DNA of 64,000 nucleotides from Yeosuana aromativorans (GTDB lineage: Bacteria; Bacteroidota; Bacteroidia; Flavobacteriales; Flavobacteriaceae), in NCBI RefSeq assembly GCF_014646655.1, contig NZ_BMNR01000002.1:399942-463941 (forward strand). The letters are read 5' to 3'. The translations under genes and the position numbers were made by a program. Position 1 is the first letter of the stretch. Each line of letters begins with the position of its first letter. Of the stretch, positions 4,397 through 61,199 are shown piece after piece. The notes beneath the pieces are model-generated. The model was given only the letters and a program-made list of their open reading frames with translations, had not been told where the DNA came from and did no database searches.

Positions 4397-6955
4397 CTAT
4401 CCACATTTTGAAGACCCACAATCCTTACAAGTCAAGCAACCTTCTTGGTAAATTAAATTTTCAGATTTACAATTATCACAAACATGTCCTTTGGCTTGTG
4501 TACCATCCTCAACATAACGCTTTAAGGCTCTTACCACACCGTTTTTCCATGTATTGATGGATTCACTATCCAATTGCAAACTATTAATTAAATCTACAAT
4601 TTTATCAATGGGCATTCCATAACGAAGGGTGCTGGAAATTAACTTGGCATAATTCCAAAACTCCGGATTAAATTTATGAGAGAGCCCCTCAATGGTTGTT
4701 TTGTAACCTCTTTTATTTTGATATTGAAAATCATAACGCGAACTGCCATCGTCATTCCTGCTTTTAATAATAAGCCCATTAACAACCCACCGTGGTATTA
4801 AAATACCATCTTCATCATCAGCCAAACCCGTAAAAATCTCATAGGGCTTGTCATCTATCAAACCAATAAAGGCAATCCATTTTTCCTTACTGTTCTGAAA
4901 GCGCACCACGTCAGCCTCTAAAACCTCTGGCCTTTTTGTTGGGAAAGCTGTCAATATATCTTGGGGCTTTTCTTCATTTTTTTCTTCATTTGATATCAAA
5001 ACCCCAGAACGTGAGCCATCACGATAAACCGTGACACCCTTACATCCTACTTCCCATGCTTTTAAATACAAGTTTCCTACCAAGTCTTCGGTAGCATCAT
5101 TAGGCAAGTTAATGGTAACACTTATGGAATGGTCTACCCATTTTTGAATAGCCCCTTGCATGCTCACTTTGCTTAACCAATCAACATCGTTGGATGTGGC
5201 TTTATAATAAGGTGATTTCTTTATTAAACCATCTAATTCTTCTTGTGTAAACTTTTTAGAAACATCAATACCATTCACTTCCATCCATTGTTTAAACCTA
5301 TGATGGAAAACTACATATTCTTCCCACGAATCCCCTACTTCATCAACAAAATCAACGCGAACATTTTTATCATTTGGGTTTACCTTACGTCTGCGTTTGT
5401 AAACTGGCATGAATACCGGTTCAATTCCTGAAGACGTTTGTGTCATTAAACTTGTTGTACCTGTTGGTGCTATGGTCAACAAAGCTATGTTGCGACGGCC
5501 ATATTCCAGCATATTATAATATAACTTTTCGTCTTCGTTTTTTATACGCTGAATAAATGGATTATTTTCTTCACGCTTAGCATCAAAAATTGCAAAAGCA
5601 CCACGTTCTTTAGCCGTATTTACAGATGCGCGGTAGGCTTCAATACACAATGTTTTATGAACTTCCAATGAGAAAGCATTCCCCGTTTCACTACCGTATT
5701 TGATACCTAAAGCTGCTAGCATATCGCCTTCAGCCGTAATGCCTATACCTGTTCTACGACCTTCCTCAGCTTTCTTTTTAATATTCAACCATAAATTCCT
5801 TTCGGTAGCTTTTACATCATCTAGTTCTGGATCTGAATCAATCTTTTCTAGGATACCATCTATTTTCTCAAGCTCTAAATCAATAATGTCATCCATGATG
5901 CGTTGTGCAGCTCCTACATGCTTTTTAAACAGCTCAAAATTAAAGACTGCATCTTTTGTGAACGGCTTTTCTACATATGAAAATAGATTAATGGCTAACA
6001 AACGACACGAATCGTAAGGACATAAGGGAATTTCGCCACATGGGTTTGTTGAAACTGTTTTATAACCTAAATCCGCGTAACAATCTGGAACCGATTCATT
6101 GATAATGGTATCCCAAAACAAAATGCCCGGCTCTGCAGATTTCCATGCATTGTGAATTATTTTTTTCCAAACATCTGTTGCATGAACCGTTTTAGAATAC
6201 TTAGGGTTTTTGCTAAATATTGGATATGTTTGCGTATAATCTGAATCAGATTTCACCGCTTTCATAAAAGCATCATCTATTCTTACGGATACATTGGCGC
6301 CCGTTACTTTTCCCTGCTCCAGTTTTGCATCAATAAAATCTTCAGAATCCGGATGGTTAATGGATACTGACAGCATTAAAGCACCGCGACGACCGTCTTG
6401 TGCCACTTCGCGTGTAGAATTGGAATAACGCTCCATGAAAGGGACAATACCGGTAGATGTTAATGCTGAGTTCTTCACGGGAGATCCTTTTGGACGAATA
6501 TGTGATAAATCGTGACCAACACCACCTCTACGCTTCATTAATTGCACTTGTTCTTGGTCAATCTTCATAATACCGCCATAAGAATCCGACTCGCCTGAAT
6601 TGCCAATAACAAAACAATTGGAAAGCGAAGCTGTTTGGTAAGGGTTTCCAATACCTGCCATTGGACTACCTTGAGGAACGATGTATTTAAAATCTTTGAT
6701 TAGGTTAAAAACTGCCTCTTCTGAAAGTGAATTGGGATACTTTGCCTCTATTCTGGCAATTTCCTTAGCAATGCGTTGATGCATCTCATTTGGTGTTGCT
6801 TCATATAAATTACCATGGGAATCTTTTAAAGCGTATTTATTGATCCAAACACGAGCAGCTAAATCGTCTCCTTTAAAATAAATTACTGAAGCTTTAAATG
6901 CTTCGTCTTGTGTATAGGTTCTTGATTGTTTGAGGGATTGGGTTTCTACAGGCAT
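4397..6955 (-). CDS. nrdJ: Adenosylcobalamin-dependent (class II) ribonucleotide reductase, long form
   Basis: It reduces ribonucleotides to deoxyribonucleotides with coenzyme B12 as radical source, so it works with or without oxygen. The three active-site cysteines expected for the family are visible: C114 (SNCF), C306 (NPCGE, thiyl radical position) and C317 (DSC). The phosphate-binding APTGTTSL segment is present. The C-terminus ends in a Cys-rich CxxC...CxxC tail, probably zinc-binding and carrying the re-reduction cysteines. No ATP-cone is seen at the N-terminus. The length of 852 residues fits the long NrdJ form. A shorter paralogue lies at 29581-31299. I saw no cobalamin riboswitch in the 5' region. 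Confidence 0.93.
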   Translation of the reverse strand: MPVETQSLKQSRTYTQDEAFKASVIYFKGDDLAARVWINKYALKDSHGNLYEATPNEMHQRIAKEIARIEAKYPNSLSEEAVFNLIKDFKYIVPQGSPMAGIGNPYQTASLSNCFVIGNSGESDSYGGIMKIDQEQVQLMKRRGGVGHDLSHIRPKGSPVKNSALTSTGIVPFMERYSNSTREVAQDGRRGALMLSVSINHPDSEDFIDAKLEQGKVTGANVSVRIDDAFMKAVKSDSDYTQTYPIFSKNPKYSKTVHATDVWKKIIHNAWKSAEPGILFWDTIINESVPDCYADLGYKTVSTNPCGEIPLCPYDSCRLLAINLFSYVEKPFTKDAVFNFELFKKHVGAAQRIMDDIIDLELEKIDGILEKIDSDPELDDVKATERNLWLNIKKKAEEGRRTGIGITAEGDMLAALGIKYGSETGNAFSLEVHKTLCIEAYRASVNTAKERGAFAIFDAKREENNPFIQRIKNEDEKLYYNMLEYGRRNIALLTIAPTGTTSLMTQTSSGIEPVFMPVYKRRRKVNPNDKNVRVDFVDEVGDSWEEYVVFHHRFKQWMEVNGIDVSKKFTQEELDGLIKKSPYYKATSNDVDWLSKVSMQGAIQKWVDHSISVTINLPNDATEDLVGNLYLKAWEVGCKGVTVYRDGSRSGVLISNEEKNEEKPQDILTAFPTKRPEVLEADVVRFQNSKEKWIAFIGLIDDKPYEIFTGLADDEDGILIPRWVVNGLIIKSRNDDGSSRYDFQYQNKRGYKTTIEGLSHKFNPEFWNYAKLISSTLRYGMPIDKIVDLINSLQLDSESINTWKNGVVRALKRYVEDGTQAKGHVCDNCKSENLIYQEGCLTCKDCGSSKCG

Positions 6956-7129
6956 TGATTTTGGTTTAAGTTTTTTAGTTAATCATTTTAACAAATAACG
7001 TAAAAAAGTTAAACTTAAAACCTGACAAAAATCATAAAGTTTACAGAAAAAAATTATAAATAATTGATAATTAATTATTTAAATATTTATCAACATAAAA
7101 AAGTTAACAAATTTTTTATTTTTTTGATT

Positions 7130-20267: not shown

Positions 20268-21707
20268 TTAATCTTTTTCTTTTTGCTTGGTTTTTTTAAA
20301 CCCTATCATGGTGCGGTTTTTAAGATCTCTTTTTTTCAATTCTTCCTCTAATTTTTTATATCTACTGATGTCTTTAATGGTCACCACAGCAGCTACCACA
20401 TGATTTTTACTGTCCAGTATAGGCCTACCGCTTAATAACACTCTTCGGCTTTCATTTGTTTCCAAATCTTTTAACAGGATATCTATATCATCTGTAACTT
20501 CACCAACCAAAGCGCGCTCTGCCGGAAGATTTTGAACAGGATACGTGGTTTCTCCATCGGGATATAGGACTTCAAAATGATCGGAGAAATTAATGGGTAT
20601 TTTGGAATCATCTTCAATTCTAAAAAGTTCATTGGCTATATGGTTAGCCAGGATGACTTGCCTATTGGCATTGGACACAATAACACCATCACTAATATTT
20701 TCAAGAATCATATTGAGTTTTTGTTGGCTTTCAAATAACTCATTTAAAGTTTTTTCTTTTTCTTCTTCAAGTTGACGTTCTTCAGTGATGTCTCTCACAA
20801 TAGCATATAATGTTCCAGTGTTTACATCGGCGGTAGCATTCCATGACAGCCATTTGATAGAGCCATCTTTACATATCCATCGGTTATTAAAATTAATCAG
20901 GTTGTTCCCTTCTTCAAGCTTTTCAATTTCCTTTTTTGTTGTTGGTACGTCTTCAGGCAAAATAAACGTTGCAAATGGTTTTTCTAAAAGTTCAGGAACA
21001 GTATATCCTAAAATCTTGCTTAAAGATGGGTTGATCTTCAAAAACCTATCTTGTGAGGCTATGACCAAGCTATCTATTGACAGATTAAAAAACGTATCGG
21101 CTGCTTTTAATGATTGCTCTACTCTTTTTCTCTCGGTAATGTCAGTTGAAATGTTACCAATGGCATAAGCTCTGTTTGAGGCATCAAATAATGGGAATTT
21201 AACAGATAAATACGTATGAAGGCCATCCAGTTGCTCCAACGTTTCTTCAATATGTATTTCCTTACCTGCTTTTATGGCTTCTAAATCTGAACTTCTGTAG
21301 GTATCTGCAATTTCCTTTGGCAAGAAATCATGATTGGTTTTTCCAATCAGGTCTTTCGCTTTTGACTCAAATAACAGTTGGTATTGTTTATTTACCAAAA
21401 TATATTCGCCATTTAATTTTTTAACCGAAATAGGATTGGTTGTATTATCAATTATGGACTGTAATACATTCTTGTTTTTTAATAATTCCTGTTCATAAAT
21501 TTTATTTGATTTCTGTTGGGCCTTCAGTATAAAAAACACCACCGTCAGCATCCCTAATGAAAGCACAATCAATACCAATGAAACCCAATCCAATGCAGTT
21601 TTGTTGGTATGTGATATCTGGCTCCAATATATGAGCCCAAGAGCCAAAATTGCCGAGAGATTAACAATAAAACCCAGGGCAATTTTTGTTTCAAATGAGA
21701 TTTTCAT
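20268..21707 (-). CDS. Membrane protein with three PAS domains and no output domain
   Basis: Two N-terminal membrane helices (about 9-28 and 40-62) and a coil lead into three PAS domains (about 80-195, 200-315 and 325-450), two of them followed by the usual PAC ending DITER/DITEER. It then stops after a short coil and a basic tail. No histidine kinase, GGDEF or other effector follows, although this architecture normally continues into a kinase. It may form heterodimers with another sensor such as the LOV kinase in this island, or be a truncated kinase. It is the last gene of an hsp20-led operon. Confidence 0.75.
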   Translation of the reverse strand: MKISFETKIALGFIVNLSAILALGLIYWSQISHTNKTALDWVSLVLIVLSLGMLTVVFFILKAQQKSNKIYEQELLKNKNVLQSIIDNTTNPISVKKLNGEYILVNKQYQLLFESKAKDLIGKTNHDFLPKEIADTYRSSDLEAIKAGKEIHIEETLEQLDGLHTYLSVKFPLFDASNRAYAIGNISTDITERKRVEQSLKAADTFFNLSIDSLVIASQDRFLKINPSLSKILGYTVPELLEKPFATFILPEDVPTTKKEIEKLEEGNNLINFNNRWICKDGSIKWLSWNATADVNTGTLYAIVRDITEERQLEEEKEKTLNELFESQQKLNMILENISDGVIVSNANRQVILANHIANELFRIEDDSKIPINFSDHFEVLYPDGETTYPVQNLPAERALVGEVTDDIDILLKDLETNESRRVLLSGRPILDSKNHVVAAVVTIKDISRYKKLEEELKKRDLKNRTMIGFKKTKQKEKD

Positions 21708-22248: not shown

Positions 22249-22776
22249 TTAAATAACCTCAATGATTTTTTTTGGATGTTCTTTTTCAATGACTTCCTCT
22301 TTTTTAAGAAGTTTAACTTTTAAAACACCGTTTTTATAAGAAGCTTTTACCTCTTGTTCCAAATCAACAGAAGGTGGAAGCATCATGGATCGTTTAAAGG
22401 ATTTGTAGCTAAACTCTCTTCGAGAATAGTTGTTTTCCTTTTCCTCGTTATCAATTTCTCTTTCACCAGAAATATGAAGCACATCCTCTTCTATATCGAC
22501 TTCAAAGTCTTTTTTGTTAAATCCAGGAACGGCTAATTCAATTTCAAAATCTTCTTTATGCTCTTTGATGTTCATAGCTGGCATAAGACTATCATCTTCA
22601 AAAAAATCATCTTTAAAAACATCATCAAATCGCAACAAATTGTTTAAATCTTCAAAGTCAGTTCTAAATAACTGGCTGCCCCAAGGTCTTAAAAAACTAT
22701 TGCTCCAAGGTGTTAATAATCTGTTTTCAAAAGGAGATAATTCGTTTCTCCTTCTGCGTTTTGTTAGTGTTGTCAT
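22249..22776 (-). CDS. Small heat-shock protein, Hsp20/alpha-crystallin family
   Basis: An ATP-independent holdase chaperone. The alpha-crystallin domain runs from about 65 to 160, with the start pattern MPAMNIKEHKEDFEIELAVPGF and the conserved end motif YKNGVLKVKLLKK (the family's GVL signature). The N-terminus is Arg- and Asn-rich as in other members. It is the first gene of an operon with the 147-residue protein and the PAS protein, under a TGAT-N4-ATCA promoter. Confidence 0.92.
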   Translation of the reverse strand: MTTLTKRRRRNELSPFENRLLTPWSNSFLRPWGSQLFRTDFEDLNNLLRFDDVFKDDFFEDDSLMPAMNIKEHKEDFEIELAVPGFNKKDFEVDIEEDVLHISGEREIDNEEKENNYSRREFSYKSFKRSMMLPPSVDLEQEVKASYKNGVLKVKLLKKEEVIEKEHPKKIIEVI

Positions 22777-22815: not shown

Positions 22816-22858
22816 CCAATGTATTTTACAAACTTGTTTTTTACAATGATTGATATCA
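22816..22858 (-). promoter_or_regulatory. Island-type promoter of hsp20
   Basis: Palindrome TGATTGATATCA (22847-22858) and, 23 bp downstream on the minus strand, -7-like octamer TACATTGG (22816-22823). Predicted start near 22811, about 35 bp before the ATG. Confidence 0.7.
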
Positions 22859-22896
22859 GCGTACTTAATTAATTCCCAACATCTTATTAACAGCAA

Positions 22897-28651: not shown

Positions 28652-29506
28652 TTACAATTGGTCCCGTCTCATATTTTGTAATGCCAAAAACGGAATGTCC
28701 ATGTTTAAGGTTAATTCATCTATTGCTGATTGAAAAATGATGTTCTCTAAAAACGAATGCCGTGTATTGACCATCACTAGCATATCAACATTATGTTCTT
28801 TAATATATTTATAGATGGTTTCAACAATGTTCTTACTGTTTATAACTTTAAAATTGATAGTATTTTTGCATAGTGTTTCTTTAATGAAATTTTGATTATC
28901 TTCTTGACGCATGGAAAGCTTTTTGGTTTTTGAGATGTATAGCATGTCAATTGTAGCCCTATATGGAGCTGCTATTTCACAAAGTAATTTTAACTCTCTC
29001 CGTTTATAGGGTATCAAATAATTTGTTGGAAACAGGATATGCTTTGGTTGTACGTATTTATAGCCTTCAGGTATAGCCAGAACAGGGCATTGCACATATT
29101 TTATGGTCTGAAGGGTGTGGCTACCAAAAGTCAGGTTTCTATCATTGGTTTTCCCACGGGTGCCCATAACAATGATATCGATATTTTCCTGATCCACAAT
29201 CCTATCGGCTTCATCCAAAAGAAGACTGTTTGATGAAATCACTTTATAGGTATGCCGTGGGTTTGGAGAGTAATCATTGGCATTTTTTAACACTACTTGC
29301 AGCTGCTTGGCGGACCTTTTACTAACTTTATCCTTGACCTTATCCAAAGTCTCTCTGGTCAATGATTCTTCATCGGCATAAATCTCATCCTGATAAGCAT
29401 GCATAAAGTAAAACTCACTGATTTCATATTTAAATAAATCAATGCCATAACGCAAAGCATTCATTGCGTTTTCAGAAAAATCAGTGGGAATCAAAATCTT
29501 TCTCAT
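28652..29506 (-). CDS. Universal stress protein, two UspA domains; first gene of usp operon
   Basis: I start it at the ATG at 29506 (MRKILIPTDFSENA), aligned with the other usp genes; Met at 29512 is an alternative and a longer frame to 29551 would run into the promoter. The N-terminal domain has a complete ATP loop (MGTRGKTNDRNLTFGSH); the C-terminal domain is degenerate. It heads an eight-gene operon that runs on to 22897: four usp genes, a baeRF-like protein, the ATP-cone nuclease, the beta-CASP hydrolase and a helical protein. Confidence 0.88.
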   Translation of the reverse strand: MRKILIPTDFSENAMNALRYGIDLFKYEISEFYFMHAYQDEIYADEESLTRETLDKVKDKVSKRSAKQLQVVLKNANDYSPNPRHTYKVISSNSLLLDEADRIVDQENIDIIVMGTRGKTNDRNLTFGSHTLQTIKYVQCPVLAIPEGYKYVQPKHILFPTNYLIPYKRRELKLLCEIAAPYRATIDMLYISKTKKLSMRQEDNQNFIKETLCKNTINFKVINSKNIVETIYKYIKEHNVDMLVMVNTRHSFLENIIFQSAIDELTLNMDIPFLALQNMRRDQL

Positions 29507-29526
29507 GGCCATTATGTGGTTATGAC

Positions 29527-29569
29527 TAAAATTAAATACTATACCATTCAATCACAATGATATATATCA
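29527..29569 (-). promoter_or_regulatory. Island-type promoter of the usp operon
   Basis: Palindrome TGATATATATCA (29558-29569); 23 bp downstream on the minus strand is octamer TAATTTTA (29527-29534). Predicted start near 29522, about 16 bp before the chosen ATG. Confidence 0.72.
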
Positions 29570-29580
29570 GACAGAAACCT

Positions 29581-31299
29581 TTAACAAGCCTCACTATTGT
29601 TTAGATTACATTTTTGGATTACCTGGTTAATTTTGCTTCCGTGACGGTAAACGGTAATTCCTTTAAGTTTATATTTCCATGCAGTCATAAAGATTCTTGA
29701 AATATCTTCTTCGGTTGTATCCTCGCAAAGATTTATGGTTTTTGAAACAGCATTATCAGTATGTTTTTGAAAAGCCTGTTGGTGCATTAAATGGTATTTC
29801 CAAGGAATTTCCAAACTGGTCTTAAAAATTGATTTTATGGACTGCGGAACCAATCTTGTGCTTTGGATGCTTCCTGCGTTTAAAATTGTCTTTTTAAGCT
29901 TATCGTTCCAAACGTTTAATTGCTTCATTTTCTGAATAAAAAGTTTGTTTATTTCAGTTTGTCTTTTGTTTCCTAATATTCCTATACGGTCATACGCTAT
30001 TGCAAATAGCGGCTCAATAGAATAAGACGTGTCTGCAATAACAGAAATGGTTCCCGTTGGGGCGATGCTATTGCAGGTTGCATTTCTCAATTTAAGGTTA
30101 GGAGCGTAAATACTGTTTTTCCATTCCGGGAAAACACCACGTTCCCGTGCCAATTTTTCTGAAGCTTTATAACTTTCATTTTTAATAAATTGCATAATCT
30201 TTTCAGCTAATGAAACTGCCTCTACTGAAGCATAAGGAATTTCCAAAAGAATAAGTAATTCGGCCCAACCCATAACGCCTAAACCTATTTTTCTGTTGGC
30301 CATTGTTATACTTTTAATCTGGGGCAATAAATAATGATTTAAAGTGATAACATTGTCCAAAAAACGGATGCCCAATTGAACTGTTTTAGTCAGTTTTTTC
30401 CAATCTATTTCAAATTTTAGATCCTTCTTTAAAATCATTTTTGAAAGATTAACAGACCCTAAATTGCAGCTTTCATAATTTAGCAGTGGTACCTCGCCAC
30501 ATGGATTGGTACTTTCAATATCCCCCATTTTAGGTGTTGGGTTTAAAATATTGATGGTGCTTAAAAAGATAAGTCCCGGGTCTCCAGTGCGCCAGGCCTG
30601 ATTCACAATTAATTGCCAGATTGCCTTAGCCTTGACAACCTTAGCCACTTTTTTAGTGTGCGGGTTAATTAATTGCCAACTTAAATCCTGTTGCACAGCT
30701 TTCATAAAATCGTCTGTTATTCCAACAGATATATTAAAGTTTTTGATGGCTTTTTTACTGGATTTTGAGGTAATGAATTCCTCTATATCTGGATGATTTA
30801 CATTTAAAATAGCCATGTTTGCACCTCTTCGCTTGCCGCCTTGCTTAACATATTCTGTGGCAGCATCATAAACTTTCATAAAAGCCACTGGTCCTGAAGA
30901 AGTACCACTTGTAGTGCTCACAAAATCATTTTTTGGACGAAGCTTTGAAAAGTTAAATCCTGTTCCGCCCCCACTTTGGTGGATTAATGCAGCATGTTTT
31001 AAGGTGCTAAAAATTGCCTCTAAACTATCCGCAATTGGAAGCACAAAGCAAGCACTTAATTGTCCGTTCCTACAGCCTGCATTCATTAAAGTTGGGGAAT
31101 TGGGCAAAAAAAGCAGATTATTTAGAATTTCATAAAACTGCTCTTCAAAAACATTTTTTTGTTCTTCTTCACAGCTTGCTACACATGTTGCCACTCGTCT
31201 AAAAAGCTGTTGAGGGGTTTCAATAATGTTGCCATCACGATCCTTTAAAAGATAGCGTTCTTTAAGAATTTGCAAAGCATTTTTAGATAAAGAAGTCAC
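29581..31299 (-). CDS. nrdJ: Class II ribonucleotide reductase, short stress-island form
   Basis: A second B12-dependent RNR, 572 residues against 852 for the first. All three catalytic cysteines are visible: C84 (SACFVLP), NPCGEVPL and ESCNLGSVNL, with the APTGTISV loop. It lacks an ATP-cone and the long zinc-binding tail. No ATG is available; I choose GTG at 31299 because the longer GTG frame (31347) would begin upstream of the predicted transcription start near 31314. Short NrdJ genes like this are, as I recall, also present in low-oxygen islands of Proteobacteria. It would supply dNTPs when oxygen-dependent enzymes fail. Confidence 0.87.
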   Translation of the reverse strand: MTSLSKNALQILKERYLLKDRDGNIIETPQQLFRRVATCVASCEEEQKNVFEEQFYEILNNLLFLPNSPTLMNAGCRNGQLSACFVLPIADSLEAIFSTLKHAALIHQSGGGTGFNFSKLRPKNDFVSTTSGTSSGPVAFMKVYDAATEYVKQGGKRRGANMAILNVNHPDIEEFITSKSSKKAIKNFNISVGITDDFMKAVQQDLSWQLINPHTKKVAKVVKAKAIWQLIVNQAWRTGDPGLIFLSTINILNPTPKMGDIESTNPCGEVPLLNYESCNLGSVNLSKMILKKDLKFEIDWKKLTKTVQLGIRFLDNVITLNHYLLPQIKSITMANRKIGLGVMGWAELLILLEIPYASVEAVSLAEKIMQFIKNESYKASEKLARERGVFPEWKNSIYAPNLKLRNATCNSIAPTGTISVIADTSYSIEPLFAIAYDRIGILGNKRQTEINKLFIQKMKQLNVWNDKLKKTILNAGSIQSTRLVPQSIKSIFKTSLEIPWKYHLMHQQAFQKHTDNAVSKTINLCEDTTEEDISRIFMTAWKYKLKGITVYRHGSKINQVIQKCNLNNSEAC

Positions 31300-31318
31300 A
31301 ATTAACCATACTATAACC

Positions 31319-31392
31319 CTAATGTATAAACAGTTGGTTTTTAACACACTGATTTATATCATTTGTTACATCCCTAGTAGTTAGCATATTTA
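31319..31392. promoter_or_regulatory. Bidirectional island-type operator, nrdJ and DUF2267
   Basis: The palindrome TGATTTATATCA (31350-31361) lies between divergent genes. Toward nrdJ the octamer TACATTAG is at 31319-31326; toward DUF2267 the octamer is CATATTTA at 31385-31392. Both begin 23 bp from the palindrome. Confidence 0.7.
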
Positions 31393-33182: not shown

Positions 33183-34031
33183 TTATTTTTTTTCGTGCAA
33201 CACTAAAAACGGGATCTCTAAATGATAGCTCATTTCTTCAACTTTTGAATGGAACAATAGCCTTTGGAAATAATTCAAGTTTTTTGCAACCATACAGATC
33301 ATATTTATCTGCCGACTTTCAACAAAACACTGTATCGCATCTTCAATATTTTTACTTGTTAAAAAAAACAGATTATAACGGCATTCTGTAAAATAGTTTT
33401 CCAAAAATTCTTTGTTGATGTTTTGGTACGCAGTCAAATCTTCTTTCTTTTTTCCAACATGAATAATTTGCAAGGACGCTTCATGTTCCTGTAAAATATC
33501 CAATAGAGGTTGCAACGTGTTAATATCATATTCCAAAGAGAAATCTGTTGGAAATGCTATTTCCTTTATGTTACCAAAACTGGCCTTTTCAGGGATGGCC
33601 AAAACATTGCAATTTACTTTTGTAATGACATCGCCTGTGTTTGAACCTATGATATACTGATTCATCCCTGAAGCACCTTTCGTGCCCATTACAATACAAT
33701 CTATTTTCTTTTCAACTACTATGTTTTTAACAGATTCTATAAAGAATCCATAATCTGTGAGTGTATGAAATCTGTGGTTTTTATGCTGTGGAAATTGACT
33801 CGAAATACGTTTTAAAATATGTCGCAATTTTATTTTTGATGGTTTTGTATAAACCTCTTCAACAATTTGGTTTGTGGGCGCATACGGAATATCCCCTGTT
33901 ATCAAATAGCTCAATTTATCAACATGCAATAAGTAAAAGTCACAGGTTGAATGCTCAAAAAACTTTAGGGCATAATTTATGGCGTTCCATGAGTTTTCTG
34001 AGAAGTCTGTCAATAATAATATATTTTTCAT
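33183..34031 (-). CDS. Universal stress protein with two UspA domains
   Basis: The fifth usp gene of the island, 282 residues, starting MKNILLLTDFSENSW. The first domain has the ATP loop (MGTKGASGMNQYIIGSN), and the second (EIAFPTDFSLEYD onward) is degenerate. It is separated from the four-gene usp cluster and heads a two-gene unit with the membrane protein. A degenerate but correctly spaced island operator lies upstream. Confidence 0.88.
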   Translation of the reverse strand: MKNILLLTDFSENSWNAINYALKFFEHSTCDFYLLHVDKLSYLITGDIPYAPTNQIVEEVYTKPSKIKLRHILKRISSQFPQHKNHRFHTLTDYGFFIESVKNIVVEKKIDCIVMGTKGASGMNQYIIGSNTGDVITKVNCNVLAIPEKASFGNIKEIAFPTDFSLEYDINTLQPLLDILQEHEASLQIIHVGKKKEDLTAYQNINKEFLENYFTECRYNLFFLTSKNIEDAIQCFVESRQINMICMVAKNLNYFQRLLFHSKVEEMSYHLEIPFLVLHEKK

Positions 34032-34050: not shown

Positions 34051-34093
34051 TAAATTTAAACTTAAGATACTGGCCACGAAATGACATTGCTCA
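34051..34093 (-). promoter_or_regulatory. Weak island-type promoter of the fifth usp gene
   Basis: TGACATTGCTCA (34082-34093) is a degenerate palindrome, but the octamer TAAATTTA (34051-34058) is at the standard 23-bp distance on the minus strand. Confidence 0.55.
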
Positions 34094-34160
34094 TTCAGAG
34101 GCTCTTATCCTGAGAAAATAATTTCTAGCTTAAATTAAGCTGTCTAAAGAAGTAAAGGGA

Positions 34161-35216
34161 TTATTTGATTTTTTTCAACCTTTCAAAGTCCATGATTTTA
34201 AAATCCTTGCCATCTGCCTTAACAATGCCTTGGTTTTTAAATATGGTAAGCGCTCTTATAAACGTTTCTGATGCTATTCCTGCTATACTTGCCAAGTCGC
34301 TTCGTGAAATTTTTATGGTATCGCCAGCTTTGTAGTTCAGCTTTTCTGCAAAATTCAAAATGGTTGTAGCTGTTTTTTTATTGACCGAACCGTATGCCAT
34401 TTGTAAAAGCTGCTCTTTTAAAGTAGCAACGTTTTCAGCCAGTAGTTCTATGAGTTCTAAAACTACTTTGTGGTTAGAGTTCAATATGTTTTTAAACTCT
34501 ATGGTAGAAACACCAAATAACCTGGTATGGTCTATGGCCTTTGCCGTTTCCTTAAATGGCACATTGTGGATAAAGGAGGTAAAACCAAACAAATCATCTT
34601 CCTTAAATAATGCAGTTGCCAGTTCTTTACCTTGTTCATCTATCTTGTAGGTCTTTACGGCACCATGATCTATTAAATAGATATAATTGGAGTGCTCACC
34701 TTCCCTGTAAATGATATCATCTTTATTGAACTCAAAAAGTGCTCCATAATCATCAAAATAATTTTTTAGATCATTCAATGTCTTTATTTCGGCATCATAA
34801 GGTATGGCTTCAAGCACAATGCTATTGGTTTTTGGCTCATCCATCTTATATGCTTTGGCCAAACGCTTTTCAATTACACTCAAAAGATCTTCTTCAGTAA
34901 ACGGTTTGGTAATGTAATCATCAGCTCCTAAATTCATGCCTTTCCGTATATCTTGGTTTTGGCTTTTCACGGACAAAAAAACAAACGGTATATACTTGGT
35001 TTTTTTGTTTTTTGAAAGTTTCTCAAACACCTCATAACCATCCAATTCTGGCATCATAATATCAGACAGAATGATATCTGGCAGGTGCTTTTCTGCCATG
35101 CTCACACCTAACAACCCGTTTGAAGCTGCAATGACCTTGTAGTTGGCCAACTCCAAAATTTCTGTGGTGTTTTCCCTTAAAGCACGGTCATCTTCTATCA
35201 ATAAAACTGTTTTCAT
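34161..35216 (-). CDS. Response regulator: receiver fused to CRP/FNR-type regulator
   Basis: Candidate master regulator of the island. Residues 1-120 form a receiver (D9-D10, phospho-acceptor D52, S82, K104). About 145-265 is a CRP/FNR-type sensor fold, and about 280-345 a CRP-type helix-turn-helix. The recognition helix has Glu317 and Arg321 in the ExxxR spacing that contacts TGA half-sites in FNR and CRP. The protein has no cysteine at all, so it cannot hold an FNR [4Fe-4S] cluster; the CRP-type cAMP-contact Arg-Ser also looks replaced (KET). Control is therefore probably by phosphorylation. It follows the LOV kinase gene in the same direction, 85 bp away. Confidence 0.9.
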   Translation of the reverse strand: MKTVLLIEDDRALRENTTEILELANYKVIAASNGLLGVSMAEKHLPDIILSDIMMPELDGYEVFEKLSKNKKTKYIPFVFLSVKSQNQDIRKGMNLGADDYITKPFTEEDLLSVIEKRLAKAYKMDEPKTNSIVLEAIPYDAEIKTLNDLKNYFDDYGALFEFNKDDIIYREGEHSNYIYLIDHGAVKTYKIDEQGKELATALFKEDDLFGFTSFIHNVPFKETAKAIDHTRLFGVSTIEFKNILNSNHKVVLELIELLAENVATLKEQLLQMAYGSVNKKTATTILNFAEKLNYKAGDTIKISRSDLASIAGIASETFIRALTIFKNQGIVKADGKDFKIMDFERLKKIK

Positions 35217-35301
35217 GTGCCTATGATATTTGTTTTACAATGGTCATGTGGAATATCACCAATAAAAATCCTATTGTCAACTATTATAAGGCTTGGATGT
35301 T

Positions 35302-37182
35302 TCATTGTTTGGCAGTATTGGGTATGGACACTGTAAACGTTGAACCTTGTTGTTCCTCACTTTCAAAATAGATGCTACCGTCTAAATGCTCCAAATGGTT
35401 TTTAACAATGTTCAATCCTATTCCTGTGCCCTCTGTATTAATGACGTTTTCGGCTCTATAATACCGTTCAAAAATGTTGTTCTGGTCTTTTTTGGGGATA
35501 CCAATTCCAGTGTCCCTGATCTTAAATGTTGTTATCTGGTCGTTTTGGTCTATATCTAAATAAATATTTGAATTCTCTGGAGAATATTTAATGGCATTAT
35601 GAATTAAATTTGATAATATCAATTCAATAATTTTCTCATCTTGATAAAGTGATAATTCTTCGCTCTTTTCTGTGTATTTTATTTGTTGGCCTTCTTTTAA
35701 GAGCATTCTGGCATTAAAAATAACCTCATCAATAATTTTGCTCATTTTAAAATAAGTATATCTATAACTTAGCTTACCAGACTCAAATTTCTCAATGGAT
35801 AAAAAACCATTTAATATATTATTTAATATATGGGCCTTCTCTGTTATGGTTTTAATGTGTTTATCCCGCTTATCCTGTTGCTCTGTCATTTGGTATTTGC
35901 TCAATAACAATGCAGAGGTTAAAATAGCACTTAAAGGGGTTTTGAACTCATGTGACAACTGTGCCAAGAATTTGGTTTTTAGTTGATTGACCTCTATCTC
36001 TTTATCAAGCACTTCTTTAAGTTGCTGTGTTCGCTCTTCAACAATCCTTTCTAGTTTAGCCGTATAGTTTTTGCGCTCTGTGATGTCCAAAATGATAGCG
36101 ACAAACACCTGTCTGTCTCCTAAATTGGAGAGTTGCAAATGGGTTTCAACCGGGTATGTGGTTTCGTCTTTTCGTTGGTGAACTGATTCAACTTCCAATT
36201 TTTCCACATTCTTTTTAAGCAAAACATCCACAACCTCTCTAAACTCTGTTTCATTTTTATAAGGTGTTATGTCAATTGGTGTCATGTTGGCCAATTCTTT
36301 CATGGTATAACCAAGGTTTCTTTGGGCACCATAATTAACGTTTATGAACTTTAAGGTTTTGGCATCAAAAACATGGATTTCATTTAAGGACCTATCAAAA
36401 ATTGTTGACAAATGCTGGCGCTCATCTTCCTCTTGTTTTCTTTCTGTAATGTCTTGATGGATGCCAATAAAATTTGTTACCAACCCATCATTATCAGTAA
36501 TGGGCATAATAAATAGCTCGTTCCAGAACAAGGTTCCATCCTTTTTATAATTTTGTAGGATTGCTCGACAACTTTCACCGTTTTCAATAGCTTTCTTTAA
36601 CTTTTCAATTGTCTCCTTATCGTCTTTTGTCCCTTGAAGAAATTTACAACTGTGATTCAATATCTCATCAGGACCATACCCAGTTAAATTTTGATAGGCC
36701 GTGTTGCAATATATCACAGGATTGCCATGCTTAAAAGTATCGGTTATGATAATGCCATTGGTTGCAGATTCCAAAGCCCTGCTTTTGATCATTAATTTTT
36801 TTTCTATTTCCTTTTGTTCGGTTATGTCACTGATCAATGCCATTACAAACGTTTTATTATAAATAGAAAACGGAATTAATTCAATATCCAATTCAATAAT
36901 ATCACCATCTTTTTTTATTCCAAAAATATTTTTTGAATCGGTGATTCTTGTCCTGGTTCCAATTTTAAAAAATTCTTTGAAATGTGCCGAAAGGATTTTG
37001 TGATAGTTAGACGGAAGCAGTACGTTTAAATCCTTTGAAATCAATTCGTCTTTTTCGTAGCCAAAAATACACTCTGCCGCTGTATTAACTTGTGCGATTT
37101 TTTGATGGTTATCAACAATAACAACTGCTTCGGAAATAGCTTCTAAAAGAATGCTTGATATGTCTTCTGCCTGCCTAAACAT
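35302..37182 (-). CDS. PAS-LOV-PAS sensor histidine kinase
   Basis: I start it at ATG 37182 (MFRQAED); the longer frame to 37278 overlaps the promoter region. Order: PAS (about 10-120), LOV (about 135-250), PAS (about 260-380), coil, HisKA with His411 (LSHEFKTP), then an HATPase with NLIHNAIKYSP, DTGIGIP and GTGIGLNIVK. The LOV domain has NHSCKFLQG with the photoactive-type Cys179, followed by QNYKKDGTLFWNEL, nearly identical to YtvA-type photoreceptors. It should bind flavin and respond to blue light or redox. No membrane segment is seen, so it is cytoplasmic. Confidence 0.9.
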   Translation of the reverse strand: MFRQAEDISSILLEAISEAVVIVDNHQKIAQVNTAAECIFGYEKDELISKDLNVLLPSNYHKILSAHFKEFFKIGTRTRITDSKNIFGIKKDGDIIELDIELIPFSIYNKTFVMALISDITEQKEIEKKLMIKSRALESATNGIIITDTFKHGNPVIYCNTAYQNLTGYGPDEILNHSCKFLQGTKDDKETIEKLKKAIENGESCRAILQNYKKDGTLFWNELFIMPITDNDGLVTNFIGIHQDITERKQEEDERQHLSTIFDRSLNEIHVFDAKTLKFINVNYGAQRNLGYTMKELANMTPIDITPYKNETEFREVVDVLLKKNVEKLEVESVHQRKDETTYPVETHLQLSNLGDRQVFVAIILDITERKNYTAKLERIVEERTQQLKEVLDKEIEVNQLKTKFLAQLSHEFKTPLSAILTSALLLSKYQMTEQQDKRDKHIKTITEKAHILNNILNGFLSIEKFESGKLSYRYTYFKMSKIIDEVIFNARMLLKEGQQIKYTEKSEELSLYQDEKIIELILSNLIHNAIKYSPENSNIYLDIDQNDQITTFKIRDTGIGIPKKDQNNIFERYYRAENVINTEGTGIGLNIVKNHLEHLDGSIYFESEEQQGSTFTVSIPNTAKQ

Positions 37183-37249: not shown

Positions 37250-37323
37250 AAATAGTAATAAACATATAATTCATGCATAATGATTTATATCATAACATAT
37301 TAACAAACAAGATTTTAAATTTA
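37250..37323. promoter_or_regulatory. Island-type operator between the LOV kinase and TerB-like genes
   Basis: TGATTTATATCA (37281-37292). Toward the plus-strand genes the octamer TAAATTTA (37316-37323) is a good match. Toward the kinase the octamer position holds TACTATTT (37250-37257), a poor match, so autoregulation is uncertain. Confidence 0.65.
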
Positions 37324-37342: not shown

Positions 37343-37753
37343 ATGGGAAAAAGAAAACAAATGACGCTTAAATTTTATCAAAATCTTGGTAAGCTATTTT
37401 ATGCCGTTGCGGCCGTGGACAAAAATGTAGAAGCGGTTGAATTTGCAAAATTAAAAGAGCTTGTAAAAAAACAATGGTTAAATCTGGATACCATTGAAGA
37501 CACTTTTGGTTCCGATGCGGCCTTCCAAATAGAAATTGTATTTGATTGGTTGAATACCCAAGGAAATTTAAACGCTAAATCTTGTTTTGACGATTTTATT
37601 GCTTATAAAAACAAACAAAACCATTTATTTACAGATACCGTAAAACATTTGATACTAAAAACAGCCCATGCCATAGCGGCATCCTTTTCGGGCATCAATA
37701 AATCAGAATTGATTTTTCTTGCTAATTTAGACAGAGAATTAAAAAATACATAA
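37343..37753 (+). CDS. TerB-like hypothetical protein
   Basis: A 136-residue helical protein with no signal peptide. The patterns MTLKFYQNLGKLFYAVAAVD and FAKLKELVKKQWL resemble TerB-like/DjlA N-terminal domains, but the match is by eye only. It heads a three-gene unit with DUF302 (2-bp gap) and thioredoxin under a strong island-type promoter. Confidence 0.65.
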   Translation: MGKRKQMTLKFYQNLGKLFYAVAAVDKNVEAVEFAKLKELVKKQWLNLDTIEDTFGSDAAFQIEIVFDWLNTQGNLNAKSCFDDFIAYKNKQNHLFTDTVKHLILKTAHAIAASFSGINKSELIFLANLDRELKNT

Positions 37754-40241: not shown

Positions 40242-40370
40242 CCAAGGCCCTTCAAAACAGAGCGCTAAAGAGATATTTGGTTTGTTTTATTTTGACTATT
40301 TGGTTTGCTGTTGTTTTTAACGCTATAAAACTTTTTGGCTTTTCATTTAAATTTGCCTAATTAAAAGAGA

Positions 40371-40413
40371 TGATAAAAATCATATAAAATGCATACTTTT
40401 AAAGATATCTTTA
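40371..40413 (+). promoter_or_regulatory. Island-type promoter of cbpA
   Basis: TGATAAAAATCA (40371-40382) and, after 23 bp, TATCTTTA (40406-40413). Predicted start near 40418, 23 bp before the ATG. Confidence 0.72.
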
Positions 40414-41648: not shown

Positions 41649-42050
41649 TCAGTTTCTACGTCGCGTATTTGTTGAGCTCTCGTCGTTAGTGCTTCTCCTT
41701 CCTTTTATATTGGTATAGGTATTCCTGTGGTATTCCTTGATGTTATCGCCATAATAATTATCAACTCTAATCTGTTTTGCATGTTTAAAATTTACACCAT
41801 TAAATCTGGGTGGCAAAATCTTTACGGTTGTCCAAACACCATTATCAAAATAAATATAGCTACTTAGTGATAAATCATAATAAACAGAATAGTCTGGAAA
41901 ATAGACATATCTTAAATGAACGACCCTGTTGGGGTAAAACCAAGGTGGCGTTTGATGGTTATATCCTCCTGAAACGATAACTGGCCCACAACTTTCCAAA
42001 CATAACAGGCTGATTAAAAAGCCTATGAAAATTATTTTGAATGCTTTCAT
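41649..42050 (-). CDS. Putative lipoprotein, unknown function
   Basis: A 133-residue protein with a lipoprotein signal (hydrophobic residues 6-20, LLCLESC with Cys at 21). The mature part is Tyr/Pro-rich and short of motifs, then a basic, Ser/Asn/Arg-rich tail. It lies convergent to cbpM (22 bp). The operator between it and the DUF6799 gene points at the other gene, not this one. Confidence 0.6.
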   Translation of the reverse strand: MKAFKIIFIGFLISLLCLESCGPVIVSGGYNHQTPPWFYPNRVVHLRYVYFPDYSVYYDLSLSSYIYFDNGVWTTVKILPPRFNGVNFKHAKQIRVDNYYGDNIKEYHRNTYTNIKGRRSTNDESSTNTRRRN

Positions 42051-42157
42051 GACGTAAGTTTTTAAAAAGTAAAGGAACTTAATATTAGGCTTTCATCCAC
42101 TGATAATTATCAATGACCTTAGAAATCAATAAAATTATTTGTAGGAAATATTCTGAC

Positions 42158-42200
42158 TGATGGATATCATTTAGAAAAATATGGCATATAGGTATTTTTA
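42158..42200 (+). promoter_or_regulatory. Island-type promoter of the DUF6799 gene
   Basis: TGATGGATATCA (42158-42169) with TATTTTTA (42193-42200) 23 bp away. Minus-strand octamer position (TTTTATTG, 42127-42134) does not fit, so it should act only rightward. Confidence 0.75.
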
Positions 42201-49010: not shown

Positions 49011-49198
49011 AAAGTATATAAGATAACTGATTTTTTGAAAAATTCAATACATCTGAAAGTACATAAAAACATAAAATATCATTCTATTTTTTAGAAAAGC
49101 AAAGAAACATTATTACTAAAATACACTGAACTGATAGGTGTAATTACTAACCTATGTTAACAAAACCAACATAAGGTAATTTTGAAATTCAAGGTGGC

Positions 49199-49241
49199 TG
49201 ACACATATCATTGCCATTTTCCCACTACGAGCTTATTTTTA
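49199..49241 (+). promoter_or_regulatory. Island-type promoter of the BON protein
   Basis: TGACACATATCA (49199-49210; one mismatch) followed after 23 bp by TATTTTTA (49234-49241). Predicted start near 49246. Confidence 0.72.
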
Positions 49242-51453: not shown

Positions 51454-52239
51454 TTATTGTTTGAAAAATGCCTTTACTTTAGGGTCCTTGGATGCTGAAA
51501 GCTCTTCAAAAGTTCCTTCGGCATAGTTTGTTCCATCAATCAATAATATCATCCTATCTGCAATAACCCTGGCACAGTCCACATCATGTGTAATGATAAG
51601 GGATGATGTATTGTATTTTTTTTGAATATCCTGCATTAATATGATGATTTCTTTTGCCGTAATGGGATCCAATCCGCTGGTTGGCTCATCATATAAAATA
51701 ATCTTTGGCTGAAGTATGAGCGTTCTGGCCAAAGCCACCCGTCTTTGCATACCACCTGATAATTCAGCGGGCATTAAATCCAATGTATGAGCTAATCCAA
51801 CATTCTTTAACGCTTCAATAACCAATGTTTCAGTATTGACATTTTTACCAAGTTTTTTATAATGGTGTCTCAACGGAAATTCCAAATTTTCTCTTACCGT
51901 CATGGAGTCATATAAGGCACTTCCTTGAAATAAAAACCCAATATCGGCTCTCAAAATATCCAATGATTCTTGATTAAGTGACGTAATATCGTGGTGCATC
52001 ACAATTATTTTTCCACTATCTGCTTCCATTAAACCCACAAGGCACTTGATCATTACCGATTTTCCTGATCCGGATTTTCCCATAACAACCAAATTCTCCC
52101 CTTTGTACAATTTCATACTAAAGTGTTTTAGAACATGATTGTCATCAAAGCTTTTATTCAAATCTTGCAATTCAAGAACCACTTCCTCACTGGATTCTTT
52201 CTTTTTGTCCTTTTCTAATATGGCCTGTTGCTTTTTCAT
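51454..52239 (-). CDS. ABC transporter ATPase, MlaF-like
   Basis: A 261-residue ATPase with Walker A GKSGSGKS, the signature LSGGMQRR, Walker B IILYDEPTSGLD and the switch His in THD. It is the energising subunit of the Mla-type lipid transporter and overlaps the permease gene by 4 bp. Confidence 0.91.
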   Translation of the reverse strand: MKKQQAILEKDKKKESSEEVVLELQDLNKSFDDNHVLKHFSMKLYKGENLVVMGKSGSGKSVMIKCLVGLMEADSGKIIVMHHDITSLNQESLDILRADIGFLFQGSALYDSMTVRENLEFPLRHHYKKLGKNVNTETLVIEALKNVGLAHTLDLMPAELSGGMQRRVALARTLILQPKIILYDEPTSGLDPITAKEIIILMQDIQKKYNTSSLIITHDVDCARVIADRMILLIDGTNYAEGTFEELSASKDPKVKAFFKQ

Positions 52240-53006
52240 AAGTCATAAAAAATATCAGCCACAAAAACGGCTATAAAGTCAATAATGAACAGTAACAATG
52301 ATGTAAAAACTACCGCAGAATTTGCTGCTATTCCCACCCCTGCTGTTCCTTTTTTACAGTAATAGCCCTTAAAACAACCAACAAGGCCAATGGCAAGCCC
52401 AAAAAAGAAGGATTTAACCGTTGCAGGAACTATGTCACCAAACTCCAAAGAATCAAAGACCTGATTAAAGTAAAGGGCAAATGACACATCCCCTTTAAGG
52501 TGCTCTACCAAATAAGAACCATATAAAGCAATGGCGTCGCCAAAAATGACTAACAAAGGAATCATTAATGTTGTTGCCATAACGCGGGTCACCACTAAAT
52601 ATTTAAAAGGATTGGTTCCTGATACTTCCATGGCATCAATTTGCTCAGTAACACGCATAGAACCCAGCTCGGCTCCAATTCCAGATCCAATTTTACCGGC
52701 ACAAACCAATGCTGTAATCATAGGGCCTATTTCCCTAACAATAGAAATACCAACCATGGACGGCATCCAAGATACCGCTCCAAACTCCATTAATGTTGGC
52801 CTGGTTTGTAAGGTAAGTACCAATCCAATAATAAAACCAGTAATACCAACCAATAACAAGGATCTGTTCCCAATGCTGTAACATTGTCTTAAAAACTCTT
52901 TAAACTCATAAGGTCTCCTAAACACCTCTTTAAAAAACCGAATTGTAAAATAAGTTAGTTCTCCAATTTCCATGAAGAATGACTTTATTTTAATCCATAT
53001 TAGCAT
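52236..53006 (-). CDS. ABC transporter permease, MlaE-like
   Basis: A 256-residue permease with several membrane helices and the MlaE signature (AELGSMRVTEQIDAMEVSGTNPFKYLVVTR). It forms the membrane core of a lipid transporter with the downstream ATPase and MCE protein. It lies divergent from the coiled-coil gene at 53155, and the shared operator fits that gene better than this operon. Confidence 0.9.
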   Translation of the reverse strand: MLIWIKIKSFFMEIGELTYFTIRFFKEVFRRPYEFKEFLRQCYSIGNRSLLLVGITGFIIGLVLTLQTRPTLMEFGAVSWMPSMVGISIVREIGPMITALVCAGKIGSGIGAELGSMRVTEQIDAMEVSGTNPFKYLVVTRVMATTLMIPLLVIFGDAIALYGSYLVEHLKGDVSFALYFNQVFDSLEFGDIVPATVKSFFFGLAIGLVGCFKGYYCKKGTAGVGIAANSAVVFTSLLLFIIDFIAVFVADIFYDL

Positions 53007-53085
53007 AAAGCATATAAATGTATGTTACAATTAAATCTAAGGTATTACCACAACATACAAAATGATTAAAGTCAGAACACTTGAC

Positions 53086-53128
53086 TGAGAAAAATCATTG
53101 CCAATCAAAGGTTTAGTTTGCATATTTA
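53086..53128 (+). promoter_or_regulatory. Weak island-type promoter of the coiled-coil gene
   Basis: TGAGAAAAATCA (53086-53097, one half-site mismatch) and, 23 bp on, CATATTTA (53121-53128). Leftward the octamer position (TTTTGTAT) does not fit, so the Mla operon is probably not driven by it. Confidence 0.5.
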
Positions 53129-55917: not shown

Positions 55918-55991
55918 TAAATGTATCACTAAATAAAGAGGTTCTAAATGATTTCAATCATTTCAAAAAGCATGCTAATGAGTTATTTTTA
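55918..55991. promoter_or_regulatory. Bidirectional island-type operator
   Basis: TGATTTCAATCA (55949-55960). Both sides have excellent octamers at 23 bp: TACATTTA (55918-55925, minus strand toward the phasin-like/UbiB unit) and TATTTTTA (55984-55991, toward the CBS gene). One palindrome should activate both genes. Confidence 0.77.
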
Positions 55992-60375: not shown

Positions 60376-61017
60376 TTATTGTTTGACATTTGAAGAAATA
60401 ATCGCTTCATTTTCCAAAGACTTAATAATACTTTTTACATAATCTTTAACTGTGGTATTAATAGCTTTTGGATCAACAATATCATAGGAAGCAACCCATA
60501 CCAATGACTTGACATTATCTTCCTTCAAATCATATAATGTTGCCTCAATGTTGTAAATATTATATTTTTCATAGTAAGAGGGATCAAGATATATGTCTTG
60601 ATACATATAATAATAAGGTCTAAAACGTCTCCAATAATAATCTCTTCTGTAAATATCTGAAGAATAAGCAACTTTTTCTTTTACACCTTTTACTGCTGAT
60701 ATTAAAATGGCATCAAACCCGTTATGAGCAAGTCTTTCAACTTCATTTTGAATATTCTCTTCAGTTTGTCTTACGCTTGTAAATTCAGTTTTAAACACGT
60801 CAAAACTCTCAACGGCATGTATACCTCTCTCTTCAAGCGATAATACCAATTGCTCTTCAAATACCCTCCTAGCTGTTAGATTATCCGTCAAACCAACTAC
60901 CAAGATTTTTTTAGGGCTATAGCCTGTATAGTCTTTGTTGACCCAACTATCTATTGTTCTTACAGAAGAACAATCCAGTAACAACAACATTATTAATAAA
61001 TAAAAAAACGCTTTCAT
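60376..61017 (-). CDS. Lipoprotein, DUF4136-like
   Basis: A 213-residue lipoprotein (signal 1-15, LLLLDCSS with Cys at 16). The mature part has GYSPKKILVVGLTDNL-like and ESFDVFKTEF-type segments, and a Tyr/Arg-rich stretch (SDIYRRDYYWRRFRPYYYMYQ). The pattern resembles the DUF4136 or FlgO-like outer-membrane lipoproteins; function unknown. It heads the operon with the D-2-hydroxyacid dehydrogenase. Confidence 0.67.
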   Translation of the reverse strand: MKAFFYLLIMLLLLDCSSVRTIDSWVNKDYTGYSPKKILVVGLTDNLTARRVFEEQLVLSLEERGIHAVESFDVFKTEFTSVRQTEENIQNEVERLAHNGFDAILISAVKGVKEKVAYSSDIYRRDYYWRRFRPYYYMYQDIYLDPSYYEKYNIYNIEATLYDLKEDNVKSLVWVASYDIVDPKAINTTVKDYVKSIIKSLENEAIISSNVKQ

Positions 61018-61036: not shown

Positions 61037-61079
61037 TAAAACTATCAGAATATATAGTAAAGCACAATGATAAATATCA
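61037..61079 (-). promoter_or_regulatory. Island-type promoter of the lipoprotein-LDH operon
   Basis: TGATAAATATCA (61068-61079) with octamer TAGTTTTA (61037-61044) 23 bp away on the minus strand. Predicted start near 61032, 15 bp before the ATG. This is the last island operator I find before the polysaccharide genes. Confidence 0.73.
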
Positions 61080-61199
61080 GTGATTTTTATAAGAATAGAC
61101 ACAAATTAATCACAAGTGAAGATAAAAATCCTTGAAAAAAATGTTAAGATACCTTGATAGCAATAACTCTTATTAAAATTAAATTTATTTAATGCTATA

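Follow-up and report, generated by a model that had tools for sequence, protein, structure and literature searches.

A LOV-bearing histidine kinase and a receiver-CRP/FNR fusion in Yeosuana aromativorans as a predicted FixL/FixJ-FixK-like low-oxygen switch

We analysed a 64,000-nucleotide stretch of the Yeosuana aromativorans genome (the window), in which three genes on the minus strand form a module. A sensor histidine kinase of 626 amino acids (35302-37182) is followed by a REC-CRP response regulator of 351 amino acids (34161-35216) and by a universal stress protein (Usp, 33183-34031), the latter assigned by Pfam and by conservation of the module. Pfam reports three PAS domains, HisKA and HATPase_c in the kinase, resulting in the order PAS1-LOV-PAS3-HisKA-HATPase_c. 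PAS1 (residues ~8-126, 36805-37161) aligns with BjFixL and RmFixL as a FixL-type haem PAS derivative. It is followed by the LOV domain (residues ~135-250, 36433-36780), by PAS3 (residues ~260-378, 36049-36405), placed by Pfam and comparison with relatives, and by the kinase core (35302-35997) with its LSHEFKTPL H-box, all on the minus strand. Inspection of the kinase sequence revealed no obvious membrane segment. We took the kinase start at 37182; the longer reading frame beginning at 37278 is unlikely because relatives begin at the same MFxQ.

In the regulator, Pfam identified REC, cNMP_binding and HTH_Crp_2, corresponding to a receiver (residues 4-115), a linker (127-140) and a CRP/FNR-like part (146-351). 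In the structural model, a flexible, low-confidence linker over residues 127-140 connects two folded parts, and a fold search matched the second part to CRP-family structures, including FixK2. The receiver has the acidic pocket, phospho-acceptor aspartate and lysine of response regulators, and its catalytic residues E8, D9, D52 and K104 are invariant in 38 relatives. Pfam and the fold search likewise place the second part, with its cNMP-type beta-roll and HTH_Crp domain, in the CRP/FNR superfamily, and its recognition helix SETFIRAL has E-xxx-R spacing. The cAMP-binding GE..RS residues are absent, as the GELG/ERSA of E. coli CRP reads GFTS/KETA here. Across its 351 residues the regulator contains no cysteine and hence none of the ligands of a 4Fe-4S cluster. 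This is exceptional, since 73 of the 74 family members with a readable motif carry a cysteine directly before the phospho-aspartate. Residue 51 of the window regulator (35064-35066) is serine, and congener G149 has cysteine at this position; possibly, this cysteine is a redox gate that the window copy has lost. These results uphold much of an original prediction made from the window sequence, which had located both reading frames at these positions, recognized the receiver-CRP/FNR fusion with D52 and the ExxxR helix, and argued from the missing cysteine that the regulator is not an oxygen-sensing FNR. It had also proposed a cognate pair in which control passes from the kinase by phosphorylation, and the conserved residues and gene adjacency are consistent with this.

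The kinase gene lies immediately upstream of REC-CRP in 76 of 79 Flavobacteriaceae loci, with Usp downstream of it in 62 of the 79. We found the fusion itself in 66 of 149 Flavobacteriaceae genomes, and phylum-wide in 43 of 296. It had been described as an unusual solution, which is wrong in number, and its rarity is therefore no ground for interest. The open-access literature on REC-CRP fusions or FixL-like kinases in Bacteroidota yielded nothing on this module, nor did we find there a report of the regulator, its binding site or its target list.

The kinase promoters revealed a shared sequence without a motif chosen beforehand: TGAT-N4-ATCA arose in 36 of 76, compared with 0.75 by shuffling. 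Relaxed to TGAY-N4-RTCA, it was present in 51 of 76 kinase promoters. Of the 62 Usp promoters, 61 have it, as a rule 55-60 bp ahead of the gene. The sole exception is the window, which has a weaker site of 10.1 bits at that place (AATGACATTGCTCATT, 34080-34095, in the REC-CRP/Usp gap, 49 bp ahead of Usp). The family-wide footprint, which we refer to as the box, reads [A/C]TGAY-N4-RTCA[T/G]. It contains the TGA half-sites expected originally. The further claim that the sites are those of FNR applies to the common core TGAY-N4-RTCA and fails at the outer base, which is A in 71%, C in 24% and T in only 5%. In FNR sites this base is T. The FNR consensus TTGAY-N4-RTCAA matched the window once, within the kinase gene, and TTGA-N6-TCAA occurred there at chance (4 found, 4.0 expected), so we rejected an FNR-type consensus as the module box.

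Across 78 loci, 401 box sites were found where 10.6 were expected, a count that includes roughly 115 sites used to build the matrix. The window holds 14 sites of at least 13 bits where 0.7 would be expected; the majority lie 49-69 bp ahead of a gene. Twelve of the genome's 46 core sites (ATGATNNNNATCAK) fall within the window, which makes up 1.7% of genome length (binomial p = 1e-11). The box AATGATTTATATCATA (37279-37294, 18.3 bits) stands 97 bp from the kinase gene, in the same place as in congeners G149 and G153, and 49 bp from a divergent gene opposite the kinase (37343-37753). Pfam, NCBIfam and PHROG gave no match for this gene; boxes accompany its family in 34 loci, so that it seems to be an uncharacterised member of the regulon core. 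At coordinates below the module, an 18.4-bit box (29556-29571) precedes a further Usp gene (28652-29551), and one of 18.0 bits (31348-31363) lies between the reading frame of a B12-dependent ribonucleotide reductase (29581-31347) and a DUF2267 gene (31417). A box of 12.9 bits (22845-22860) stands 69 bp ahead of an HSP20 gene (22249-22776), and one of 16.0 bits (7021-7036) 66 bp ahead of a ribonucleotide-reductase large-subunit gene (4397-6955). On the other side, boxes precede a DnaJ/CbpA-like gene (40441) by 57 bp (40369-40384, 16.2 bits), a BON-domain gene (49273) by 61 bp (49197-49212, 13.4 bits), a CBS-domain gene (56020) by 58 bp (55947-55962, 14.7 bits) and the gene at 60376-61017 by 49 bp (61066-61081, 18.5 bits). 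Two boxes of 14.5 and 13.5 bits (42099-42171) between the genes at 41649-42050 and 42230 are both kept in congener locus L166, and one of 16.3 bits (53061-53076) lies between an MlaE permease gene (52236-53006) and the gene at 53098. Near this regulon island, the window also encodes a multi-PAS protein (20268-21707) in which Pfam reports no kinase domain.

Targets were called from boxes alone. Within the window they include the large-subunit genes of two ribonucleotide reductases, one of them B12-dependent, together with genes for Usps, HSP20, DnaJ/CbpA-like, DUF2267, BON, CBS, MlaE and WG-repeat proteins and the switch itself. Outside it, boxes precede ccoI and ccoS-ccoN of the cbb3 oxidase (51 bp upstream of ccoS, a gene named by eye from its sequence) as well as genes for the NiFe hydrogenase small subunit, pyruvate:ferredoxin oxidoreductase (PFOR), cytochromes including cytochrome c, ResB and an FNR-like regulator. 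The predicted targets are a low-oxygen respiration and survival set, and the presence of cbb3 oxidase, hydrogenase and PFOR among them supports the link to low oxygen made in the original prediction.

Other CRP/FNR proteins of the genome may also read these boxes. An FNR-like gene (L151:2681-3358) and a gene for a cNMP-domain protein (L148) each have their own box. Genomes with REC-CRP contain 290 boxes compared with 99 in the control, a greater excess than the 164 compared with 112 of those without it, but an excess was also seen in 2 of 10 genomes lacking REC-CRP. The boxes at these two genes and the excess in some genomes lacking REC-CRP would fit a scheme in which the boxes serve another CRP/FNR protein and REC-CRP regulates something else. 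We regard this as improbable, however, because nearly all genomes have a box in the module's own promoters, those of kinase and Usp, and boxes are dense around REC-CRP loci.

The proximal haem ligand of Bradyrhizobium japonicum FixL is His200 (PMC10765370). In PAS1 of the window kinase, the equivalent residue is leucine and the equivalent of the distal Arg220 is lysine. Both FixL residues are kept in 42 of 50 non-LOV kinases in our alignment. They are also present in a paralogue from the same genome (L011), which belongs to a second module on contig C5. Its kinase has 414 residues and one PAS, its REC-CRP is 59% identical to that of the window, and Usp is the third member. The best structure matches of the paralogue PAS are FixL and DosP/haem-PAS entries (E 3e-15 to 9e-10), with LOV entries far below. 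Judged from these residues and matches, the ancestral sensor was a haem PAS of the FixL type, which is intact in the paralogue and degenerate in window PAS1. The haem arginine is lost in 12 of 15 LOV kinases compared with 8 of 50 non-LOV kinases (Fisher p = 9e-6); we do not claim that LOV presence is coupled to this loss, as, despite the strong raw counts, the tree does not show the events to be independent. The C5 module (L011, L157) adjoins NiFe hydrogenase and Hyp maturation genes; here a box separates the gene of the hydrogenase small subunit from a HypA-like gene.

The second PAS-type domain of the window kinase is, by sequence, a genuine LOV domain. As predicted originally, it contains Cys179 in the motif NHSCKFLQG and the YtvA-like segment QNYKKDGTLFWNEL, and LOV domains head its solved-structure matches (E down to 9e-30 among the best 60 matches listed). 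It thus combines a LOV sequence with the adduct cysteine of blue-light photoreceptors. In AsLOV2 numbering, Cys450, the flavin-contact residues Asn482 and Asn492, and Gln454 are kept. The photocycle glutamine is replaced by histidine (Q513H), and the pocket carries three further changes, N449S, R451K and R467K; two phosphate-contacting arginines are lysines. The canonical GXNCRFLQ motif reads NHSCKFLQ here. Exchange of this glutamine for histidine abolished the light response in YF1, NmPAL and AsLOV2; YF1 and AsLOV2 still bound flavin and had no canonical photocycle, and in YF1 the balance shifted towards kinase activity (PMC9098866). Extrapolating from these receptors, we would expect no adduct in the window domain, which has probably ceased to be a light sensor of the canonical kind. 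A missing cysteine or glutamine is nevertheless no proof of blindness, because LOV proteins without the adduct cysteine can signal via photoreduction of the flavin (PMC4682037) and some natural receptors lacking the glutamine, a class in which a few carry histidine, can be light-responsive (PMC9098866).

Comparison with relatives shows how variable this chemistry is. In the closest relatives, L082, L083 and L084, all flavin-contact residues are canonical. Between the window kinase and these three, conservation reaches 72, 67 and 71% in PAS3 and only 64, 59 and 58% in the LOV domain; PAS1, too, is less conserved than PAS3. The window genome groups with Yeosuana marina at genus level. Among the congeners, G149 has the same glutamine to histidine exchange, and G153 carries Cys to Ser, as seen at locus L122, and Gln454 to Tyr. 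In a third species, Yeosuana marina, the LOV domain is gone by clean excision, as in the L081 kinase, which has PAS1 and PAS3 alone. The G152 locus ends at a contig end and is uninformative on LOV. Congeners that lost the cysteine or the domain still keep the kinase, the regulator and the boxes. Overall, cysteine or glutamine is lost in 8 of the 25 LOV domains paired with REC-CRP in the set examined here. The LOV dN/dS between the window and G149 is 0.07, which indicates purifying selection and rules out pseudogene decay; the domain therefore does something and is not a relic. What looks dispensable in Yeosuana is the light-adduct chemistry. LOV kinases make up about a quarter of the aligned kinases, and their distribution needs five changes on the tree, hence repeated gain or loss.

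Could the domain still be a working blue-light photoreceptor through which light gates the regulon in Yeosuana aromativorans? The kept cysteine, asparagines and Gln454, the LOV entries at the top of the structure matches, the purifying selection, the canonical pockets of L082-L084 and the ability of natural glutamine-lacking receptors, a few of which carry histidine, to respond to light (PMC9098866) would all agree with it. On the other hand, the exchange found here left three receptors without an adduct or without a light response (PMC9098866), three more pocket residues differ, and congeners dispense with the cysteine or the whole domain while keeping the rest of the system. We consider a light-gated regulon unlikely, and the light regulation originally predicted is not borne out for this kinase.

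If the window domain is probably unable to run a photocycle, the input is most likely the flavin redox state or a ligand of PAS3. Both are forms of the low-oxygen reading that we favour. In one, the LOV domain would bind flavin and, in place of the lost haem sensor, read redox state or oxygen by chemical means. Flavin incorporation by the histidine variants (PMC9098866), the reaction of cysteine-less LOV-like domains to flavin reduction, chemical or light-driven (PMC4682037), and the respiratory regulon point in this direction; flavin binding by the window domain is putative, however, two phosphate-contacting positions hold lysine, and Yeosuana marina manages without the domain. We consider this form somewhat less likely than not. 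In the other, PAS3 would carry the signal and the domain would have a purely structural role, as spacer or for dimerisation, as the better conservation of PAS3 and the L081 kinase with PAS1 and PAS3 alone may suggest. The otherwise kept pocket residues and the low dN/dS argue against a mere spacer, and we find this form slightly less probable than flavin sensing.

The conserved job of the kinase/REC-CRP pair is probably low-oxygen control, and the pair most likely turns on a low-oxygen survival programme. With a probability of roughly 70%, we read it as a FixL/FixJ-FixK-like cytosolic low-oxygen switch with the receiver fused to a CRP protein and a LOV domain that probably lacks a photocycle. 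We infer phosphotransfer, activation as the direction of regulation, and the signal; the architecture, residue changes, footprint, predicted regulon, conservation and statistics are sequence-based. A kinase of FixL-type haem-PAS descent would phosphorylate Asp52 of the adjacent REC-CRP, and phosphorylation, rather than a nucleotide or Fe-S cluster, would enable the CRP-type part to bind [A/C]TGAY-N4-RTCA[T/G] boxes ~45-70 bp ahead of start codons. Binding would activate genes for cbb3 oxidase, hydrogenase, PFOR, B12-dependent ribonucleotide reductase, Usp, HSP20 and a DnaJ-type chaperone. The window copy would have lost its haem ligand and gained a LOV domain, and probably senses neither oxygen via haem nor light via an adduct. 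The paralogous pair would retain the haem sensor, and its box points to the same kind of promoter.

The proposed switch would be an analogue of the FixL-FixJ-FixK cascade of rhizobia, with which it shares haem-PAS kinase ancestry, low-oxygen targets including cbb3 oxidase and a CRP/FNR-type output. It differs in that the FixJ-like receiver and FixK-like activator are one protein, in the missing haem histidine and arginine of the window copy and in an outer box base of A/C rather than T. Like FNR/ANR, the system has a TGAY-N4-RTCA core, an E-xxx-R helix and anaerobic targets, but the window regulator has a phospho-receiver instead of a cysteine cluster, and the outer box base is again A/C. YtvA and bacterial LOV histidine kinases share the LOV sequence and the cysteine, and differ in having GXNCRFLQ and the photocycle glutamine. 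The engineered YF1, in which the YtvA LOV domain sits on the FixL kinase and acts with FixJ, also has LOV on a FixL-type kinase, and the canonical-LOV relatives L082-L084 look like its natural counterpart. In contrast to YF1, the window kinase has three PAS domains, a REC-CRP output and the very exchange that blinds YF1 (PMC9098866).

For the low-oxygen life of marine flavobacteria, these data name a regulator, its binding site and its targets in a form that can be tested. They also uncover a series of natural kinases that gain and lose haem and LOV sensors while the output stays the same, which opens sensor swapping to study in actual relatives and not only in engineered chimeras like YF1. 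More speculatively, and with clear doubt, the module may be a family-wide low-oxygen device of Bacteroidia in which LOV repeatedly joined the haem sensor or took its place, blue light gating the hypoxia regulon in canonical-LOV relatives and the Yeosuana LOV having turned into a flavin redox sensor.

Several further LOV-bearing kinases came up in the survey. A related kinase, L085 (G115), has a LOV domain with the adduct cysteine changed to isoleucine, and the reading frame of the LOV kinase L087 (G061) begins at LOV without PAS1, being truncated or mis-started. Finally, a second, distant REC-CRP subfamily (~40% identity; L109, L111, L112 and L114-L119) pairs with LOV-bearing kinases of 676-1109 amino acids, and L112 and L114 carry the glutamine to histidine exchange.
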